Below are positions 54,199 through 61,908 of a DNA stretch of 64,000 nt, in pieces. Positions within the stretch are counted from its first letter, which is position 1; each line of letters opens with the position of its first letter. Location of the stretch: NCBI GenBank assembly GCA_945928575.1, contig CAMENP010000005.1, positions 62,001 to 126,000 of the forward strand. The letters are read 5' to 3'. The position numbers were made by a program, and so were the translations under genes. The notes under the pieces were generated by a model, which saw only the letters and a list, made by a program, of their open reading frames with translations, was not told the DNA's origin and made no database searches. The stretch is from an uncultured Butyrivibrio sp. GTDB lineage: Bacteria; Bacillota; Clostridia; Lachnospirales; Lachnospiraceae.

Positions 54199-56727
54199 TT
54201 AAGCCTCGGCTTTCTTTGATGTCTTTACTTTAACATTTAACTTGTCGCTTTCCTTATATGGTCTGAAAAGCATGTAGATAAGGAATGCAAGTACGAGAAC
54301 TGCAACTATTACACCGAATACATTTCCGTTACCCTTGAAGAGGTTACCGAACTGATTGATCATAAGTGCAATTACATAAGCAAATCCGCACTGATATCCG
54401 ATTGCGAACCATGTCCACTTAGGGCTGTTCATCTCTCTCTTAATAGCACCGATTGCTGCGAAGCAAGGAGCACAGAGAAGGTTGAATACGAGGAATGACA
54501 TACCTGCAACTGTTGAAAATGCGCTTGCAAGTGAAGCATATACCGAAACATCTCCTGTTCCGTAGAGAATACCCATTGTTGCTACGATGTTTTCCTTAGA
54601 TACAAGTCCTGTAACAGATGCGACTGTTGCCTGCCAGTTACCCCATCCGAGAGGTTTGAATATCCAGCAGATTCCCTTACCTATATGAGCAAGTATACTG
54701 TATTCCATCTGCTCTTCGGCAAGCATTCCGAATGAGCCGTCAACCCATCCGAAGAATGATGTAAACCATACGAGGATTGTTGAAAGAAGAATGATTGTTC
54801 CGGCTTTCTTGATGAATGACCATCCACGCTCCCACATTGAACGGAGAAGGTTACCGACTGTCGGCCAATGGTAAGCAGGAAGCTCCATTACGAAAGGAGC
54901 AGGCTCGCCTGAGAACATCTTTGTCTTCTTGAGCATAATACCTGAAATAATAATTGCTGCCATACCCATGAAGTAAGCACCTGTTGCCACAAGCGGTGAA
55001 CCGCCGAAGATTGCACCTGCGATCATAGCGATGAACGGCTGCTTAGCACCACATGGAATAAATGTTGTTGTCATAATTGTCATACGACGGTCACGCTCAT
55101 TCTCGATCGTTCTTGAAGCCATGATACCGGGGATACCACAACCTGTACCGATAAGGATAGGAATGAATGATTTACCTGAAAGTCCGAATCTTCTGAAGAT
55201 ACGGTCAAGTACGAATGCGATACGTGCCATATATCCGCATGCCTCAAGGAATGCAAGCAATAAGAAGAGTACGAGCATCTGAGGTACGAAACCAAGTACT
55301 GCACCGACACCGGCTACAATACCGTCAAGGATAAGTCCACGGAGCCAGTCAACACAGTTAGCTGCATCAAGAAGCTTCTCAACAAGTACCGGAATACCCG
55401 GAACCCATACACCGTATTCAGCGGTATCAGGAGCGCCGTAATTTTCCTTGGCATAATCGGAATCAGGATCTGTGCTTAAGTAAGCTGCAACCGCTGTTTC
55501 AAGGTCGCTCTTGCCGACTTCCGGAGTATCTGTAATCTCAAGTGTCTCTTCATCCTGAACTTCGTATGTTACTTTTGCGTCATCAGGAGTTGCTGCAACG
55601 AGCTGTTCAAGTGCTGCCTTAGCGCCTTCTTCTGTATAATCATCGGATTCGGCATCAAGTGCTGCCGCTATGTCATCATTGCCGTATTCTGAAGTAAACG
55701 CATCGATGATCAGATCTGAATCGCCGTATGCTTCTGCTGCTGCTTCATAACTCTTGCTTCCGATTCCGAACAAATGCCATCCGTCACCGAAAAGTCCATC
55801 GTTAGCCCAGTCGGTTGCCGCCGAACCAACGGTTACCATTGATATATAATATACTAAGAACATTATAACAATGAAGATTGGGAGCGCTGCAAAACGGTTT
55901 GTAACAACCTTATCAATCTTATCTGAGACTGAAAGTTTCTTGGCGCCTTTCTTTCTTGTACAGCACTCATCAATGATTGATGAGATGTATGTATATCTTT
56001 CGTTGGTGATAATACTTTCGGTATCATCATCGAACTCATCTTCAAGTGCCTTGATCTCTGATGTAACATCAGGCACGCTGTTTAACTGTTCTTTGATCTT
56101 GTCATCTTTCTCAAGAACTTTTATTGCGAAGAATCTCTTCTGATCTTCGCTTACATCGGAACCGAGCTTATCCTCCACTGAGCTGATGGCCGATTCAACG
56201 CTTGGTGCAAACTCATGTACAATGCTTACAGACTGCTTAGCTTCTGCAAGTTCCACTGCCTTATCCGCAGCCTTCTTGATTCCTGTTCCTTTAAGAGCGG
56301 AAATCGATACTACCGGGCATCCGAGTTTCTCACTGAGTTTGTCAAGATTAATTTTCTCGCCGGTCTTCTCAAGAAGATCAGCCATATTTACCGCTACAAC
56401 AACCGGGATTCCAAGTTCAAGAATCTGTGTTGTAAGATAAAGGTTTCTCTCAAGGTTGGTTCCGTCTACGATATTAAGGATCGCATCCGGTCTTTCTGTT
56501 ATAAGATATGTTCTTGCTACAACTTCTTCGAGAGTATACGGTGAAAGTGAGTAAATACCCGGAAGGTCCATGATTGTTACGCTCTTGTTACCCTTGAGCT
56601 TACCTTCTTTTTTCTCTACCGTAACGCCCGGCCAGTTACCTACGAACTGATTTGAGCCTGTCAATGCATTAAAAAGTGTTGTTTTACCACAGTTAGGGTT
56701 ACCTGCTAATGCAATTTTAATAGCCAT
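54199..56727 (-). CDS. feoB: Ferrous iron transport protein B
   Basis: 842 aa. An N-terminal G domain with GNPNCGKTTLFN (G1), DLPGIYSL (G3) and VAVNMADLL (G4, NxxD), a GDI helical domain (160-270), then the membrane part with nucleoside-transporter-like Gate motifs (GTGCGIPGIMASR, MAAIIISG, FKPLGWGNWQATVASVTGLVSKENIVAT). Imports Fe2+ across the inner membrane. Unusual: an acidic extra-membrane insertion at about 320-435 (Asp/Glu/Ala rich, SDDYTEEGAKAALEQLVAAT) not in standard FeoB (about 650-770 aa). Downstream of two feoA genes but with a palindrome and gap of its own. Confidence 0.95.
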   Translation of the reverse strand: MAIKIALAGNPNCGKTTLFNALTGSNQFVGNWPGVTVEKKEGKLKGNKSVTIMDLPGIYSLSPYTLEEVVARTYLITERPDAILNIVDGTNLERNLYLTTQILELGIPVVVAVNMADLLEKTGEKINLDKLSEKLGCPVVSISALKGTGIKKAADKAVELAEAKQSVSIVHEFAPSVESAISSVEDKLGSDVSEDQKRFFAIKVLEKDDKIKEQLNSVPDVTSEIKALEDEFDDDTESIITNERYTYISSIIDECCTRKKGAKKLSVSDKIDKVVTNRFAALPIFIVIMFLVYYISMVTVGSAATDWANDGLFGDGWHLFGIGSKSYEAAAEAYGDSDLIIDAFTSEYGNDDIAAALDAESDDYTEEGAKAALEQLVAATPDDAKVTYEVQDEETLEITDTPEVGKSDLETAVAAYLSTDPDSDYAKENYGAPDTAEYGVWVPGIPVLVEKLLDAANCVDWLRGLILDGIVAGVGAVLGFVPQMLVLFLLLAFLEACGYMARIAFVLDRIFRRFGLSGKSFIPILIGTGCGIPGIMASRTIENERDRRMTIMTTTFIPCGAKQPFIAMIAGAIFGGSPLVATGAYFMGMAAIIISGIMLKKTKMFSGEPAPFVMELPAYHWPTVGNLLRSMWERGWSFIKKAGTIILLSTILVWFTSFFGWVDGSFGMLAEEQMEYSILAHIGKGICWIFKPLGWGNWQATVASVTGLVSKENIVATMGILYGTGDVSVYASLASAFSTVAGMSFLVFNLLCAPCFAAIGAIKREMNSPKWTWFAIGYQCGFAYVIALMINQFGNLFKGNGNVFGVIVAVLVLAFLIYMLFRPYKESDKLNVKVKTSKKAEA

Positions 56728-56746
56728 TTTTCCTATTCCTTTCCTT

Positions 56747-56802
56747 GTTATATATAACTATCTCTTATTTGTTATCACTATTTTAAGTTAGTATATACTA
56801 AC
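56747..56802 (-). promoter_or_regulatory. Palindromic sites between feoA and feoB
   Basis: GTTAGTATATACTAAC (56787-56802) is a perfect 16-bp palindrome and GTTATATATAAC (56747-56758) a perfect 12-bp one. They lie in the 90-bp gap, suggesting separate control of feoB by the nearby DtxR-type regulator. Confidence 0.6.
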
Positions 56803-56818
56803 CTTAGTGCAAAAAAAA

Positions 56819-57040
56819 TTATTCTACACTAATCATTTCAGCATCAGCTTTTCTGAGTGAAAGTTCATATCCTCTTACCGTTACCTCTACCGGATCTCCA
56901 AGAGGGGCCACTTTTCTCACATAGATTTCGACGCCTTTGGTTATACCCATATCCATGATACGTCTCTTTACCGGACCTTCACCTGTAAGTTTAACAACCT
57001 TAACGGTCTCGCCACAGGCTGTCTCTCTTAATGTCTTCAT
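56819..57040 (-). CDS. feoA: FeoA domain protein (second copy)
   Basis: 73 aa SH3-like FeoA fold: VVKLTGEGPVKRRIMDMGITKGVEIYVRKVAPLGDPVEVTVRGYELSLRKADAEMI, the standard FeoA pattern (GDP.E..VRGY.L.LR..EA). Small cytoplasmic partner of FeoB. AAAGGAG RBS. Distinct from the first copy 41 bp upstream. Confidence 0.93.
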   Translation of the reverse strand: MKTLRETACGETVKVVKLTGEGPVKRRIMDMGITKGVEIYVRKVAPLGDPVEVTVRGYELSLRKADAEMISVE

Positions 57041-57081
57041 TTCCTGCTCCTTTCTGATATCTGATAAATAATGACATCACT

Positions 57082-57294
57082 TTAGATCATAATTCTGTTC
57101 GCCATATCGCGTCCTATCGCAACACGGGACTCTTTAACATTGACAATAAGATTGCCTCCGATTGAAGAGACAACTGTCACTGCAGCACCCGGAACAAAAC
57201 CGAGATTTTCCAAGAATCTTCTTGTATCTTCTTTACCGCCGACCTTGATTATCGTATTAACTTCACCCTCGCCAGCCATCGTTAAAGGCATCAT
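57082..57294 (-). CDS. feoA: FeoA domain protein (first copy)
   Basis: 70 aa, FeoA/SH3 fold: GEGEVNTIIKVGGKEDTRRFLENLGFVPGAAVTVVSSIGGNLIVNVKESRVAIGRDMAN. It diverges from the second copy, with GGNLIVNVKESRVA replacing GDPVEVTVRGYELS. First gene of the operon after the strong promoter/operator at 57331-57366. The start is either of two tandem ATGs. Confidence 0.92.
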   Translation of the reverse strand: MMPLTMAGEGEVNTIIKVGGKEDTRRFLENLGFVPGAAVTVVSSIGGNLIVNVKESRVAIGRDMANRIMI

Positions 57295-57330
57295 CTTATC
57301 CTCCTTGTGTGTTTAAAATTGTATTTCTAC

Positions 57331-57366
57331 GTTGGTTAGTATATGCTAACCAACGTTAGTTGTCAA
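57331..57366 (-). promoter_or_regulatory. feoA promoter overlapped by a DtxR-type operator
   Basis: Minus strand: TTGACA (57361-57366), 17-bp spacer, TATACT (57338-57343). The 24-bp near-perfect palindrome GTTGGTTAG ... CTAACCAAC (57331-57354) covers the -10 hexamer. Its half sites resemble the TTAG/CTAA sites at feoB and at DUF3793. Confidence 0.75.
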
Positions 57367-57408
57367 TAACTTTTTTCATTTTTTTAAATTTTTTTCTCAA
57401 TAAGGCGT

Positions 57409-57437
57409 TTGAAAAAATATACAGATTATGATATAAT
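57409..57437 (+). promoter_or_regulatory. Promoter of the DtxR-type regulator
   Basis: TTGAAA, 17-bp spacer, TATAAT, 71 bp upstream of the ATG. Divergent from the feo promoter 43 bp away. Confidence 0.65.
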
Positions 57438-57507
57438 GAGCATAATAATTGAAAGCCGGGCTATATGTGAGGAATACCGGTGTAATATAAGAGAAAGGTT
57501 CTTTATT

Positions 57508-57876
57508 ATGGTACTTAATGAATCAACTGAAAATTATCTCGAAGCTATTCTGATGCTGAGTTCGAAACTTCCCGTAGTACGTTCGGTGGATATTGCGAAC
57601 GAGCTCGGTTTTAAGAAGCCAAGTATCAGCATTGCGATGAAGAATCTCAAAGAGAAAGAATATATAACCGTGACAGATGCCGGATATATCTATCTGACAG
57701 AGAGCGGTAAGAAAATAGCCGAAAGCACTTTAGAACGTCACGAATTTTTCTCCAAATGGCTAGTAAGCCTCGGAGTTGATAAGACAACGGCATCCGATGA
57801 TGCATGTAAGATTGAGCACGTATTAAGTCAGCAGAGTTTCGATGCCATACGTAATTTCGTTACCAATGCGAAATAA
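57508..57876 (+). CDS. DtxR/MntR-family metal-dependent regulator
   Basis: 122 aa from MVLNESTENYLEAIL (AAAGG upstream; the ORF-track N-terminal 33 codons cover the promoter). HTH SVDIANELGFKKPSISIAMKNLKEK, then the metal-site helix region ERHEFFSKWLVSLGVDKTTASDDACKIEHVLSQQSF (His/Glu/Asp ligands). No SH3-like third domain, so MntR-like in size. Encoded divergently from feoA next to its operator; iron or manganese could be the sensed metal. Confidence 0.92.
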   Translation: MVLNESTENYLEAILMLSSKLPVVRSVDIANELGFKKPSISIAMKNLKEKEYITVTDAGYIYLTESGKKIAESTLERHEFFSKWLVSLGVDKTTASDDACKIEHVLSQQSFDAIRNFVTNAK

Positions 57877-57901: not shown

Positions 57902-57955
57902 AACTCCCATATGGATTATATTCAGGCTCTGCCTTAATAATTCCATATGGGAGTT
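57902..57955. terminator. Bidirectional terminator
   Basis: 14-bp perfect arms AACTCCCATATGGA / TCCATATGGGAGTT with a 26-nt loop, between the convergent regulator and the 217-aa gene; T-rich after the right arm. Confidence 0.7.
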
Positions 57956-57968
57956 AATTTTTATATTT

Positions 57969-58622
57969 TTAATGTTTCAATGCCCCGTTGCCAAAATATC
58001 TGACAGACGTTGACACCGGATTGTTGCTGCCATAACGTGAGCTCGTATAATCCTTTGCCGAACAGAATGCATTAGTCAGGGTTTTTTTATCTATCATCCA
58101 GTTATTGAAAAATTCTTTTTCGAATGCCCTGGCCTCTTCCACCCCGATCTGGCTCTCATATCCTATCACAGCACGATAACCGCAATTCATCAAGGTTGTA
58201 CACAAATTCTCACCCGATACTTTGTCGGTTTTGGCGCCGTAACATACGCTCAGAAATGCAAGATTCCCGCTCATGCCTTTAATAACATCATCCGGTCTGT
58301 AATACACATAATTCTTATCTAATGTGATAATACTTCCGTCGGTTAAACCCTTTGCGCTTATATATGTGCAATCCGAATTAGATAATATCGAATTAATTCC
58401 ATATACAGACTTCGGTCTTTCAAATATCAATGCATTTTTCCCACTGTTCTCCATAATGTTCTTAAGACTGACCGCATAATTCTTTTCGCCATCAAAATTA
58501 TCACTGCTGTACACTATGGATTCTGCATTTCCCAATGTTGCAGATACTTTAGTTGACTGTAATATAATCAGCCATGTAATTACTAACAGATTTAATATTA
58601 TCACCAATACCTTTTTCTTCAT
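57969..58622 (-). CDS. Secreted caspase-like protein lacking the catalytic His
   Basis: 217 aa. Signal peptide (about 1-28, cleavage near KVSA-TL). The mature protein resembles a small caspase/gingipain-type (CHAT/C25/C14) fold: TYISAKGLTDGSI (87-98), where the family normally has His-Gly, and LAFLSVCYGAKT with Cys127 at the active-Cys position, then GYRAVIGYES. Lys91 occupies the dyad His place, so peptidase activity is doubtful or the site is different. The fold assignment is my inference. Last gene of the ECF-serpin operon, 20 bp after the serpin. Confidence 0.65.
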   Translation of the reverse strand: MKKKVLVIILNLLVITWLIILQSTKVSATLGNAESIVYSSDNFDGEKNYAVSLKNIMENSGKNALIFERPKSVYGINSILSNSDCTYISAKGLTDGSIITLDKNYVYYRPDDVIKGMSGNLAFLSVCYGAKTDKVSGENLCTTLMNCGYRAVIGYESQIGVEEARAFEKEFFNNWMIDKKTLTNAFCSAKDYTSSRYGSNNPVSTSVRYFGNGALKH

Positions 58623-58641
58623 ATCTTATGTACCTCCTTAT

Positions 58642-59916
58642 CTATAAGCTTGTAACCACTCCAAGATATACCGGTATATTGGTTGTATTGTCGATTACCG
58701 CATATACAAACGGTTTATCAAATCTTAATTCATCCGGCAGACATCTGTGCGGTTCTTCGTACTCTGTTGTTTCTTCATTTACGGCTTTGTCACTTACGGA
58801 CATCTGAACTTTCTGAATGATCTTATCAGTTGAAACCCCGTCTCCGGTGGACAACATATTACTCAGGTCTGCTTTACCTGATGTAAACATATCGCTGATG
58901 CCCATATTCTGTAAGGCGGATGTCAGGTCGGTCTCACAGCTGATATCAAATTCAGGTATAAAAGCTGTCACCTTACCGCTTCCCGCTCTGTTAAGATAAT
59001 CCCTGAACGTCTTGCCGTCAAGGCGGTTAACAAATGTCCATATATCTTCTGATTTAGCCGGAAGAAGTGCTACAAAACTGTATCCTGACGTATAATGTTT
59101 AACAAGCCCGAATGCTTCTCCGGTATTAGGATCATCATTTTCGTATATTCCCAATGCCTCCTCGGAGCGCATAAGCTTAGTCGTCTGGACATTGCCGTCA
59201 ATATCCGTAAATTCACCCTGTGGAGCAATATAATCTTTCTCATATTCCATAGTCCACGTTCCGTCAAATGTAGCAGCATTGACCAGATACATGCTGTTAT
59301 CTTTACCGACTTCATCCACTATATGGTCTATGGTTTTATCCGTCGATTTGCTTGCCCACTTATTGATGTCCTCTGCAGTTGTTTTGTCAAATGCCGTCGA
59401 GAATACCTGTGCGCCATACTTTTCCGATGCCGTGGCAAGGAACTTGTCATTCACATCCTTGGCAGCACTTTCCTTAAGCCATACAGAGTTAGCTATTACC
59501 GCCTTCGTGCTGTCTTTGTCCGTTTCCGAACGATTAATAAAATAATTGCATAAGTCATCAAACTTATTCATATCGTCCGTTCCGAGTGCTTTCTGAATCT
59601 GGCTTAGTGTATCTCCCGATGTACCGCCGGCAGTCATGCTGAGTGCAGTCATGACCGAGACCGGTGAAATAACCGTTGTCTTGTGCTCCGAAGTGCTTTG
59701 CTTAAGCAGTTCAAAAGCAAAATCCTGTGCACTTTCTATACTTGCCTTATAATCATCGATATTACTACCCACATCACTTCCGCTGATTTTTGTCTTACTG
59801 TCTGTAAGTTCCTTGGATGTTAACTTATATCCCGTCTTGCCGCATCCTATTAACGATGCAGTAAGCATGATCACTCCTACTACAAGCGCTGTTCTTTTAA
59901 CAAGTCTTTTACTCAT
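58642..59916 (-). CDS. Serpin-family lipoprotein
   Basis: 424 aa. Lipobox SLIGCG (Cys about 26) after a Lys/Arg-rich signal, so a membrane lipoprotein facing outside. The serpin fold shows TVISPVSVMTALSMTAGGTSGDTLSQIQKALG (helices B-D), NAATFDGTWTMEYEKD, and C-terminal DKPFVYAVIDN ... PVYLGVV. The reactive-centre segment VNEETTEYEEPHRCLPDELRF (about 379-399) is about ten residues shorter than in inhibitory serpins and lacks the Ala-rich hinge. Encoded between a PepSY protein and a caspase-like protein. Confidence 0.85.
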   Translation of the reverse strand: MSKRLVKRTALVVGVIMLTASLIGCGKTGYKLTSKELTDSKTKISGSDVGSNIDDYKASIESAQDFAFELLKQSTSEHKTTVISPVSVMTALSMTAGGTSGDTLSQIQKALGTDDMNKFDDLCNYFINRSETDKDSTKAVIANSVWLKESAAKDVNDKFLATASEKYGAQVFSTAFDKTTAEDINKWASKSTDKTIDHIVDEVGKDNSMYLVNAATFDGTWTMEYEKDYIAPQGEFTDIDGNVQTTKLMRSEEALGIYENDDPNTGEAFGLVKHYTSGYSFVALLPAKSEDIWTFVNRLDGKTFRDYLNRAGSGKVTAFIPEFDISCETDLTSALQNMGISDMFTSGKADLSNMLSTGDGVSTDKIIQKVQMSVSDKAVNEETTEYEEPHRCLPDELRFDKPFVYAVIDNTTNIPVYLGVVTSL

Positions 59917-59950
59917 ATAAAACCCTCCCTTAAATCCTGATAATAAATCA

Positions 59951-60736
59951 TTACCTTAACTCAGAGATGTTTCCTTCCTCGCCCGTTGTCTTATCGATTT
60001 CAATCACATATCCGCCGACCATACCGTTATCATCCGATACATACATTATGTACCAGTAATTATGGCCGCCGTGCGTATTGGTATCCACCGTTACCTTGTT
60101 AAAGGCGTCAGAAGATGTATTATATCTTTCCTTAAGTATATTTCCCGCAAGCTCCAGTGCTTTTTCTTCGGATATCACACCAGCTATCTGTTCATCGCTC
60201 AATACTGCGTCGAACCAGAAACTTCCCGAGACTAATGTGCCGTTTTTAAGATATGACATCGCTGCGATTGTTCCCACTTCTTTGCCGTCAGACATCTGGC
60301 GCATATATACACGCTTCGTGTCTTCCGAATCATCTTCTATGCTCCATTCGAATCTGTCGGGTTCATAGTCCTTATACCATTTCATGACATATTCCTTAGC
60401 CGAATTGATGATTTCCTCATCTGAGACAGCTTTCTGAACCGATACCATGGCATCACCGGTATCGTCCGCAATTAACAGTTCAAGATATCCATTGTCATTA
60501 TTGATATAATACATGTTATTGTCTTTATCCGTATATATCGTATCTTTGTCTAACGGCATCTTTTCCTGATCATCGGCCTTATCAAGTGTCTCACCTGCAG
60601 CTTCAATCTGTTGTGGACTGTCTGCATTTCTTCCTTTGTCATTTCCTTTGGTGTTGGTTAACGTGAACACCGACACGACTGCCACAGCCGCGGCCAATGC
60701 TGCTGTACCGGCAATGATTGTAATACGTTTTCTCAT
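59951..60736 (-). CDS. Membrane-anchored PepSY-domain protein
   Basis: 261 aa from MRKRITIIAGTAALAA (AAGGAGG 10 nt upstream; the ORF-track start 11 codons earlier overlaps the RBS). One N-terminal membrane helix, a Glu/Asp/Lys-rich linker, then two alpha/beta PepSY-like units (SDEEIINSAKEYVMKWYKD; ISEEKALELAGNILKERY), ending VIEIDKTTGEEGNISEL. PepSY domains often inhibit extracellular proteases. Follows the anti-sigma gene by 29 bp. Confidence 0.85.
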   Translation of the reverse strand: MRKRITIIAGTAALAAAVAVVSVFTLTNTKGNDKGRNADSPQQIEAAGETLDKADDQEKMPLDKDTIYTDKDNNMYYINNDNGYLELLIADDTGDAMVSVQKAVSDEEIINSAKEYVMKWYKDYEPDRFEWSIEDDSEDTKRVYMRQMSDGKEVGTIAAMSYLKNGTLVSGSFWFDAVLSDEQIAGVISEEKALELAGNILKERYNTSSDAFNKVTVDTNTHGGHNYWYIMYVSDDNGMVGGYVIEIDKTTGEEGNISELR

Positions 60737-60765
60737 AGGAATATACCTCCTTAATACATTAAGTT

Positions 60766-61278
60766 TCACCTGTCAAATCTGACAATTACCGTGCTTTTAA
60801 GCCAGTCCGCATCCATTCTTATATATACCGCATCTTCTTTACCCGATATATATATCTGGCCTGTAGCATCAAATGCAGAAACAAAGTCACATTCACTTAC
60901 CGGAACCTTACCTGATATATGATTAATTTCATTATAATATATATATCCATCCGGAATCCGGTTATATATTGCTGCACCTTTATGCCACTCATAAAGCTTT
61001 CCTCTGACTTTGACAGTCGGGTAAATTTCACCCGCACCGTAAGGCACCGGATCATCATCCGCTTTATGTTCGTAATATGCCACTTTCTCTGTAACCTGTG
61101 AACCTGATTTATTATCTGTGTTGATTGATGCTGAATAAACAATTGCGATAAAGCATATGCCTGCTGCTGCCGCATACCACTTTACACGCCCCTGCTTCTT
61201 ATGAAGAGTAATTTCCGAACGTTCCAGCAGATCATCGCTAATCTTGCCAAAACTGACGTACAAATCATTTCTGTTCAT
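60766..61278 (-). CDS. Putative anti-sigma factor (single-pass membrane protein)
   Basis: 170 aa. A short cytoplasmic N-terminus (about 1-30) is followed by one TM helix (WYAAAAGICFIAIVYSASI, about 34-52) and an external beta-rich domain. The start overlaps the ECF sigma gene by 14 bp with AAAGGAGGG 8 nt before the ATG. I call it anti-sigma from position and topology; no zinc-binding HxxxCxxC motif is present. Confidence 0.75.
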   Translation of the reverse strand: MNRNDLYVSFGKISDDLLERSEITLHKKQGRVKWYAAAAGICFIAIVYSASINTDNKSGSQVTEKVAYYEHKADDDPVPYGAGEIYPTVKVRGKLYEWHKGAAIYNRIPDGYIYYNEINHISGKVPVSECDFVSAFDATGQIYISGKEDAVYIRMDADWLKSTVIVRFDR

Positions 61279-61834
61279 CAATAAATCCCTCCTTTATAAG
61301 TCTTTTCTTAAGTTTCCTACGGGTTCTGCTCAGGATTACCGTGACATTACTCTCACTGATGCCATAGCGTTCCGATATTACCTGTACCGGCTCTGTGAAG
61401 AAATATCTGCGTAAGAATACGTTCGCATCACGCTTTGACAGTTCTCTTACAAACCTCTCAACAAATTCTCCGAGTTCTTTCGTTATGTATTCATTCTCCA
61501 CATCCGTTCCACCGGCTATGCACTCAGCCAATTCGTCAAGAACCATATTAATTTCACCGCATCCCCGTCTGGACACATTATGCATTCTGACCATATTGAA
61601 TGCCAGGTTTCTGGTTATTTTCGCCAGAAACATTTTAAGTTTACCCGGTCTGTGTGGCGGAATCGAATTCCATGCTTTATTCCAGGTATCATTGACACAT
61701 TCCTCGGAATCTTCATTATTATCCAGGATATTATAAGCAACAGTATAACAGTAAGTCCCGTATTTACTTTCAGATTCCTTTATTGCGGATTCGTCTCTCT
61801 TCCAATAAAGCTCTACAATTTGATTATCTTCCAT
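61265..61834 (-). CDS. ECF RNA polymerase sigma factor
   Basis: 189 aa. Region 2: DSEECVNDTWNKAWNSIPPHRPGKLKMFLAKI and TRNLAFNMVR; region 4: SKRDANVFLRRYFFTEPVQVISERYGISESNVTVILSRTRRKL. ATG preceded by GGAAG. Drives the anti-sigma-PepSY-serpin-caspase-like genes downstream and probably its own promoter. No sensor kinase nearby. Confidence 0.9.
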   Translation of the reverse strand: MEDNQIVELYWKRDESAIKESESKYGTYCYTVAYNILDNNEDSEECVNDTWNKAWNSIPPHRPGKLKMFLAKITRNLAFNMVRMHNVSRRGCGEINMVLDELAECIAGGTDVENEYITKELGEFVERFVRELSKRDANVFLRRYFFTEPVQVISERYGISESNVTVILSRTRRKLKKRLIKEGFIDEQK

Positions 61835-61881
61835 CACAAAACTTCCTCATTGGTATCTGAAAAATACTCTTCATATAATAA

Positions 61882-61908
61882 GACACTTTTTTTTCAAAAA
61901 CCCTACAC
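61882..61908 (-). promoter_or_regulatory. Candidate autoregulated ECF promoter
   Basis: Minus strand GTGTAGGG (61901-61908), 14-nt gap, GTGTC (61882-61886): an ECF-like -35/-10 arrangement (GGG-type -35, TGTC-type -10), about 48 bp before the sigma gene. Inference from pattern only. Confidence 0.45.

Follow-up and report, generated by a model that had tools for sequence, protein, structure and literature searches.

A Butyrivibrio sigma factor operon with a serpin lipoprotein and a caspase-fold protein, and its possible place in a protease-responsive circuit of the Lachnospiraceae

What does a sigma factor respond to when its operon ends in a serpin lipoprotein and a secreted caspase-fold protein, and what do these two proteins do there? 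The question is raised by a locus in a stretch of 64,000 nucleotides (nt) of DNA from an uncultured Butyrivibrio sp. (contig CAMENP010000005.1, positions 62,001 to 126,000), which as a whole is called the window below. It belongs to a genome of 2.5 Mb in 43 contigs. Five genes on the minus strand code for an extracytoplasmic function (ECF) sigma factor, an anti-sigma, a PepSY-type protein, a serpin lipoprotein and a protein of 217 amino acids (aa). An initial annotation of the window had listed this co-oriented set, and all five open reading frames are present in the order it gave. We lean slightly towards the view that the operon is a member of a recurring circuit of the Lachnospiraceae in which an ECF sigma factor and a one-pass anti-sigma are tied to a serpin, and which would sense and answer extracellular proteolysis much as RsiV deals with lysozyme.

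The recurrence is seen in a sample of genomes, which was not exhaustive. It included 392 Lachnospirales genomes, 123 of them with serpins, and 40 Lachnospiraceae serpin loci with 42 serpins were taken for analysis. An ECF sigma gene lies immediately upstream of 12 of these 42 serpins (L073, L074, L093, L099 with two, L102, L103, L104, L106, L107, L108 and L111), and at L106 the sigma gene overlaps the serpin start. The measured density of sigma70-family genes is about 6 per Mb, so that the chance expectation is about 0.3% per serpin. The binomial tail for 12 of 42 is 5e-21, and when the loci are collapsed to genera and a generous chance of 3% is allowed, it is still about 1e-4. None of 30 serpins from other Clostridia, run through the same pipeline with shorter flanks, lies behind an ECF sigma gene (p 7e-4 against the Lachnospiraceae). 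A serpin is found in four of five genomes of the window genus, and in G299, G300 and G301 it comes straight after the genes for an ECF sigma other than that of the window and for a short membrane-bound anti-sigma. A reversed order, serpin and then an overlapping ECF sigma gene, was observed at L122 (3430-5191, G747:C22).

The linkage goes as far as fusion. Eight proteins consist of anti-sigma, transmembrane segment and serpin, seven of them in six Lachnospiraceae loci (L073, L093, L099 with two, L102, L106, L108) and one in another family (L119). They start with a cytoplasmic motif of 30-40 residues like MNKHDLLDAVGDIDSKFVKEA, followed by one hydrophobic segment and by the serpin domain as the extracellular part. 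Fusion of a serpin to a signalling protein suggests that serpins are used in these relatives both to sense and to block proteases. ECF-linked serpins do not group together in a tree of 70 serpins but are spread over it, and the strongly supported (starred) branches force at least four changes for the fused state. Two of the fused loci have further features: the 719-aa protein at L073 (3197-5356, G096:C6) continues after the serpin into BspA-type LRR_5 repeats, and at L119 (3159-6270, G717:C3), outside the Lachnospiraceae, the sigma gene is followed by the anti-sigma-serpin fusion and then by another serpin lipoprotein.

In the window a predicted ECF-type autoregulatory promoter, GTGTAGGGTTTTTGAAAAAAAAGTGTCTTAT (31 nt, 61878..61908, minus strand), is located about 40 nt ahead of the sigma start. 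A pattern search of the whole genome gave three sites with zero mismatches and one with two, and the reversed control gave none. The three perfect sites precede the window operon, a broken second serpin gene on contig 12, and the gene for a secreted C39-like peptidase on contig 2; the two-mismatch site on contig 1 was discarded since it falls within a coding region. With a related, shorter promoter pattern the operon site is the sole zero-mismatch match within the window. Other serpin-linked ECF sigma genes have the same promoter layout upstream. On contig 2 the motif lies about 250 nt ahead of the gene for a secreted protein of 404 aa, the C-terminal half of which is a C39-like peptidase (29.8 bits, cut-off 24), while its N-terminal part gives a weak match, below cut-off, to an I69 protease inhibitor. 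The initial annotation had postulated a single ECF-controlled unit with a theme of protease control, and had supposed that envelope stress would induce it. Unit and theme are both supported, the theme by the motif common to a second serpin and a secreted cysteine peptidase, and by the recurring ECF-serpin linkage. It should be noted that the leader of about 250 nt between motif and peptidase gene (L173, 2216-2498, G000:C2) has no Rfam match; no Rfam elements were found in the window or at the promoters on contigs 2 and 12. The broken second serpin (L003, 7762-12141, G000:C12) adjoins genes for an AgrB-like protein, a response regulator, a sensor kinase and a subtilase.

A second motif, TGTAACC-N16-CGYTATWTAGNGTGAAG, was derived from those loci of genus g207 that have the sigma gene, and was searched in five whole genomes of the genus. 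Each of the five has exactly one match, at the serpin. This includes G207, a held-out genome which had no part in making the motif. The G207 locus lacks sigma and anti-sigma, and the serpin ATG is 23 nt past the motif (L095, 3780-3842, G207:C21), a serpin directly behind an ECF-type promoter. The nearest sigma elsewhere in G207 has 39% identity to the serpin-linked sigma, against 67-100% in the other g207 genomes.

These results bear on the possibility that the ECF system answers general envelope or cell-wall stress, with proteases not being the signal and the serpin, PepSY and caspase-fold genes being effectors or passengers. In favour of it, the third genes of ECF operons in the family vary (L134, from the window's own genome, is an example), and the window serpin has a defective hinge, as described below. 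However, the association and fusion of serpin and anti-sigma are repeated across the serpin tree, and the motif matches are limited to serpins and one peptidase; we consider general stress unlikely as the signal.

The sigma factor itself (190 aa, GTG start, 61265..61837, minus strand) has sigma70 regions 2 and 4 only, as expected for the ECF class; Sigma70_r2 and r4_2 are above the Pfam cut-off and TIGR02937 scores 62.9 bits (cut-off 42.9). Its gene overlaps that of the anti-sigma (171 aa, 60766..61281, minus strand), a protein with a cytoplasmic part of 30-odd residues and a single hydrophobic segment at residues 35-53. In the alignment its N-terminus, MNRNDLYVSFGKISDDLLERSE, is similar to the cytoplasmic motif of the serpin-fused anti-sigmas.

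The window serpin is a lipoprotein of 424 aa (58642..59916, minus strand; lipobox ..LIGC28). The serpin domain is complete, with a PF00079 match of 227.8 bits over residues 62-423 that covers profile positions 2-369 of 370. Alignment with the paralogue on contig 12 and other relatives places the reactive-centre loop region at 58720..58794 (minus strand), with Arg or Cys as the predicted P1 residue. The inhibitory hinge of serpins has the consensus ExGTEAAAA (PMC8233489). In the window serpin positions P17-P9 read DKAVNEETT, with none of the eight consensus residues, against four to eight in nearly all relatives. The inhibitory hinge is lost, and the simple role of protease inhibitor suggested earlier was not borne out; judged by its residues, this copy is unlikely to trap proteases. 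The paralogue has a good hinge, EKGTKAASS, in a gene broken into two frames. The body of the protein is conserved between the two (nonsynonymous divergence, dN, 0.14-0.37; synonymous divergence, dS, about 2.4-2.5); the C-terminal part without the loop is 59% identical (dN about 0.32), and in the loop 3 of 25 residues are kept. The serpin body thus looks to be under constraint. A truncated loop was considered and rejected, as by our own count its length is that of the paralogue and close to that of alpha-1-antitrypsin, and only the residues differ. A scan of genome contigs with the window serpin found no relatives. Among the fused proteins, L099 (1580-6180, G977:C7) has two tandem pairs of sigma and anti-sigma-serpin, one with a hinge degenerate like that of the window and the other with a good one.

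The last gene (57969..58622, minus strand) codes for the secreted 217-aa protein, which had been described as caspase-like. Searches with its sequence (Pfam, NCBIfam, PDB sequences) gave nothing useful for a caspase relation. The structure models were built on five-sequence alignments, and the AlphaFold model of this protein is of moderate confidence (mean predicted local distance difference test, pLDDT, 69; predicted template modelling score, pTM, 0.68), with the strand order expected for a caspase fold. Among solved structures, Foldseek matches it best to gingipain R (E 2.5e-6), to separase and to the CHAT protein of Craspase. Several relatives have His-Gly and Cys at the caspase positions (CCHG or SSHG ... 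LGACRSA or ISVCYSA), and one of them, L029, scores 25.1 bits for CHAT in Pfam, above the cut-off of 24. The caspase-like fold, of the CHAT/gingipain type, stands on the predicted strand order, the structure matches, the conserved His-Gly/Cys relatives and the relative that passes for CHAT. In the window protein the corresponding segments are ISAKG ... LSVCYGA. The catalytic His, which is kept in L027, L028, L029, L031 and L032, is replaced by Lys91 (58350-58352), and Cys127 (58242-58244) is kept in the alignment; with these residues catalytic activity is unlikely. All clear relatives that were found belong to the window genus, with at most seven pieces per genome, and a scan of genome contigs with the alignment of the family gave only four loci, all in metagenome-assembled genomes of Butyrivibrio sp. 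The family is essentially confined to this genus.

Loss of both the serpin hinge and the catalytic His could mean that the tail of the operon is decaying and that serpin and caspase-fold genes are degenerate remnants which merely happen to be open frames. In keeping with such decay, the gene of the second serpin is broken, and frameshifts or truncations are seen in several relatives of the caspase-fold protein. Against this, both window genes are intact and preceded by good ribosome sites, and since the duplication there has been strong purifying selection on the serpin body, averaged over the two copies, while the loop alone was replaced. We find decay quite unlikely.

The initial annotation had also proposed the last protein as target, decoy or partner of the serpin. 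According to this proposal the two form a binding pair in which the pseudo-protease occupies or protects the serpin. The genes are adjacent, 19 nt apart, both products are secreted, and the predicted P1 Arg would suit a protein whose best fold match is gingipain-like, that is Arg-specific. The neighbourhoods elsewhere speak otherwise: six other loci have a caspase-fold gene followed directly by a PepSY homologue, with no serpin nearby, and the other serpins of the genus have no caspase-fold neighbour. A conserved partnership with the serpin was therefore not borne out, and we regard the binding pair as improbable.

The conserved neighbour is the PepSY gene (59951..60736, minus strand), 34 nt ahead of the serpin gene. 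The listed reading frame reaches 60769, and the ATG at 60736, behind GGAGG, is from its context a more likely start than the GTG at 60769. The product is a membrane-anchored YpeB-like protein; its AlphaFold model matches the C-terminal domain of YpeB (E 9e-6), and by sequence profile DUF4901 is just below the Pfam cut-off. At L033 (7506-8846, G299:C6) CHAT-like and DUF4901 segments are found in one frame interrupted by a single TGA, which reads as a broken single-chain version of the pair. The two genes could thus be a separate module, a PepSY chaperone or inhibitor with its clan CD surface protein, that has landed in the sigma operon. Conservation of the pair in six other loci and the single-chain protein at L033, with its one in-frame TGA, favour this, whereas in the window the two genes flank the serpin within one operon with one promoter and are therefore now co-regulated with it. 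We hold this to be a real possibility, a little short of even, and it is compatible with the protease-responsive circuit. Since the pair adjoins elsewhere without a serpin, the window operon can be read as a merger of this pair with a sigma/serpin unit.

The circuit that we slightly favour would work as follows. A serpin is displayed at the cell surface; in the window it is a lipoprotein, and in the relatives it forms the extracellular domain of the anti-sigma. An extracellular protease would attack the displayed serpin or the anti-sigma, and the anti-sigma would be lost. The freed sigma factor would then transcribe the operon that encodes it, along with a regulon of very few genes, those for serpins and, in the window genome, for the secreted C39-like cysteine peptidase, and in this way the cell would answer proteolysis with protease-trapping and protease-related proteins. 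That a protease is the signal, that the anti-sigma is proteolysed and that the window serpin has a binding or guarding role at the surface is what we infer from the genes. Since the serpin has lost the hinge that trapping requires, and the caspase-fold protein its catalytic His, the window copy probably acts by binding, as decoy, sensor or scaffold, together with the joined PepSY/caspase-fold pair. A more specific version, which we put forward tentatively as possible rather than probable, takes the Lachnospiraceae serpins to be conformational protease sensors of ECF signalling. The reactive loop, in an anti-sigma-serpin or in a serpin lipoprotein guarding the anti-sigma, would be cleaved, and the transition from the stressed to the relaxed state would release sigma; inhibitor and sensor would be one molecule, and the window would carry a derived form that no longer traps.

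Several observations weigh against the circuit. About 70% of the Lachnospiraceae serpins have no adjacent ECF sigma gene. The window anti-sigma has no Pfam match at E<=1, and profiles recognise no anti-sigma domain in it. Across the entire motif and spacer the three promoter sites hardly differ, and they are therefore possibly recent copies and not independently kept. The dS of the serpin pair is near saturation. Finally, the window serpin is a separate, unfused lipoprotein with a defective hinge, so that for this copy the trapping proposed in the model falls away.

Downstream, an inverted repeat (AACTCCCATATGG / CCATATGGGAGTT, 57902..57955, no strand assigned), read from the sequence between the operon end and a convergent MntR-like gene, is likely a terminator common to both. 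Next to the operon (window 54199-57876) lie genes for FeoB, for FeoA (two) and for a divergent regulator of the MntR/DtxR type. Weak Pfam matches (Tra_M, Pox_M2 and the like) were taken as noise.

The functions of bacterial serpins were termed enigmatic in a recent survey (PMC8233489), and we found no paper on a link between serpins and anti-sigma or sigma factors among the titles and abstracts of the open-access papers searched. The recurrent serpin/anti-sigma fusion points to a concrete function for them, the sensing of extracellular proteases in gut and rumen Clostridia, and the single-promoter motifs offer reporters for finding the inducing protease.

The closest known system is Sigma-V/RsiV of Bacillus subtilis and C. 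difficile, which likewise pairs an ECF sigma with a one-pass anti-sigma. Its operon is autoregulated, as is predicted for the window operon, and the extracellular part of its anti-sigma senses and also inhibits an enzyme outside the cell (PMC5014341). RsiV binds lysozyme as the signal, inhibits it and is then cleaved, whereby sigma-V is freed (PMC5014341). RsiV thus combines sensor and inhibitor in a single protein, and an anti-sigma with a serpin for its outer domain fits this scheme with proteases as the signal. Unlike the lysozyme binder RsiV, the extracellular or co-encoded module here is a serpin, which by analogy would act on proteases; the layout with the inhibitor domain as the extracellular part of the anti-sigma is not that of the window, where the serpin is a separate lipoprotein with its own gene. 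In Bifidobacterium breve serpin expression is induced by proteases through a two-component system (PMC8012564). There too a bacterial serpin is induced through an envelope sensor encoded alongside, but the sensor is a two-component system and not an ECF sigma, and a serpin-sensor fusion is not described. The siropins of Eubacterium (PMC5127057) and other gut Firmicutes serpins are, like the window serpin, secreted serpins of gut Clostridia; the window serpin differs from siropins in lacking the inhibitory hinge, and a siropin link to sigma factors was not found in the open-access papers retrieved. The last protein shares with the clan CD peptidases CHAT, gingipain and separase the caspase-hemoglobinase fold and the Cys after strand 4, and differs from them in the Lys at the His position and in being small, secreted, of a single domain and tied to PepSY. 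The PepSY-type protein, like YpeB, has a membrane-anchored PepSY fold and is paired with a secreted hydrolase-like partner, which here is a caspase-fold protein and not the cortex hydrolase SleB.

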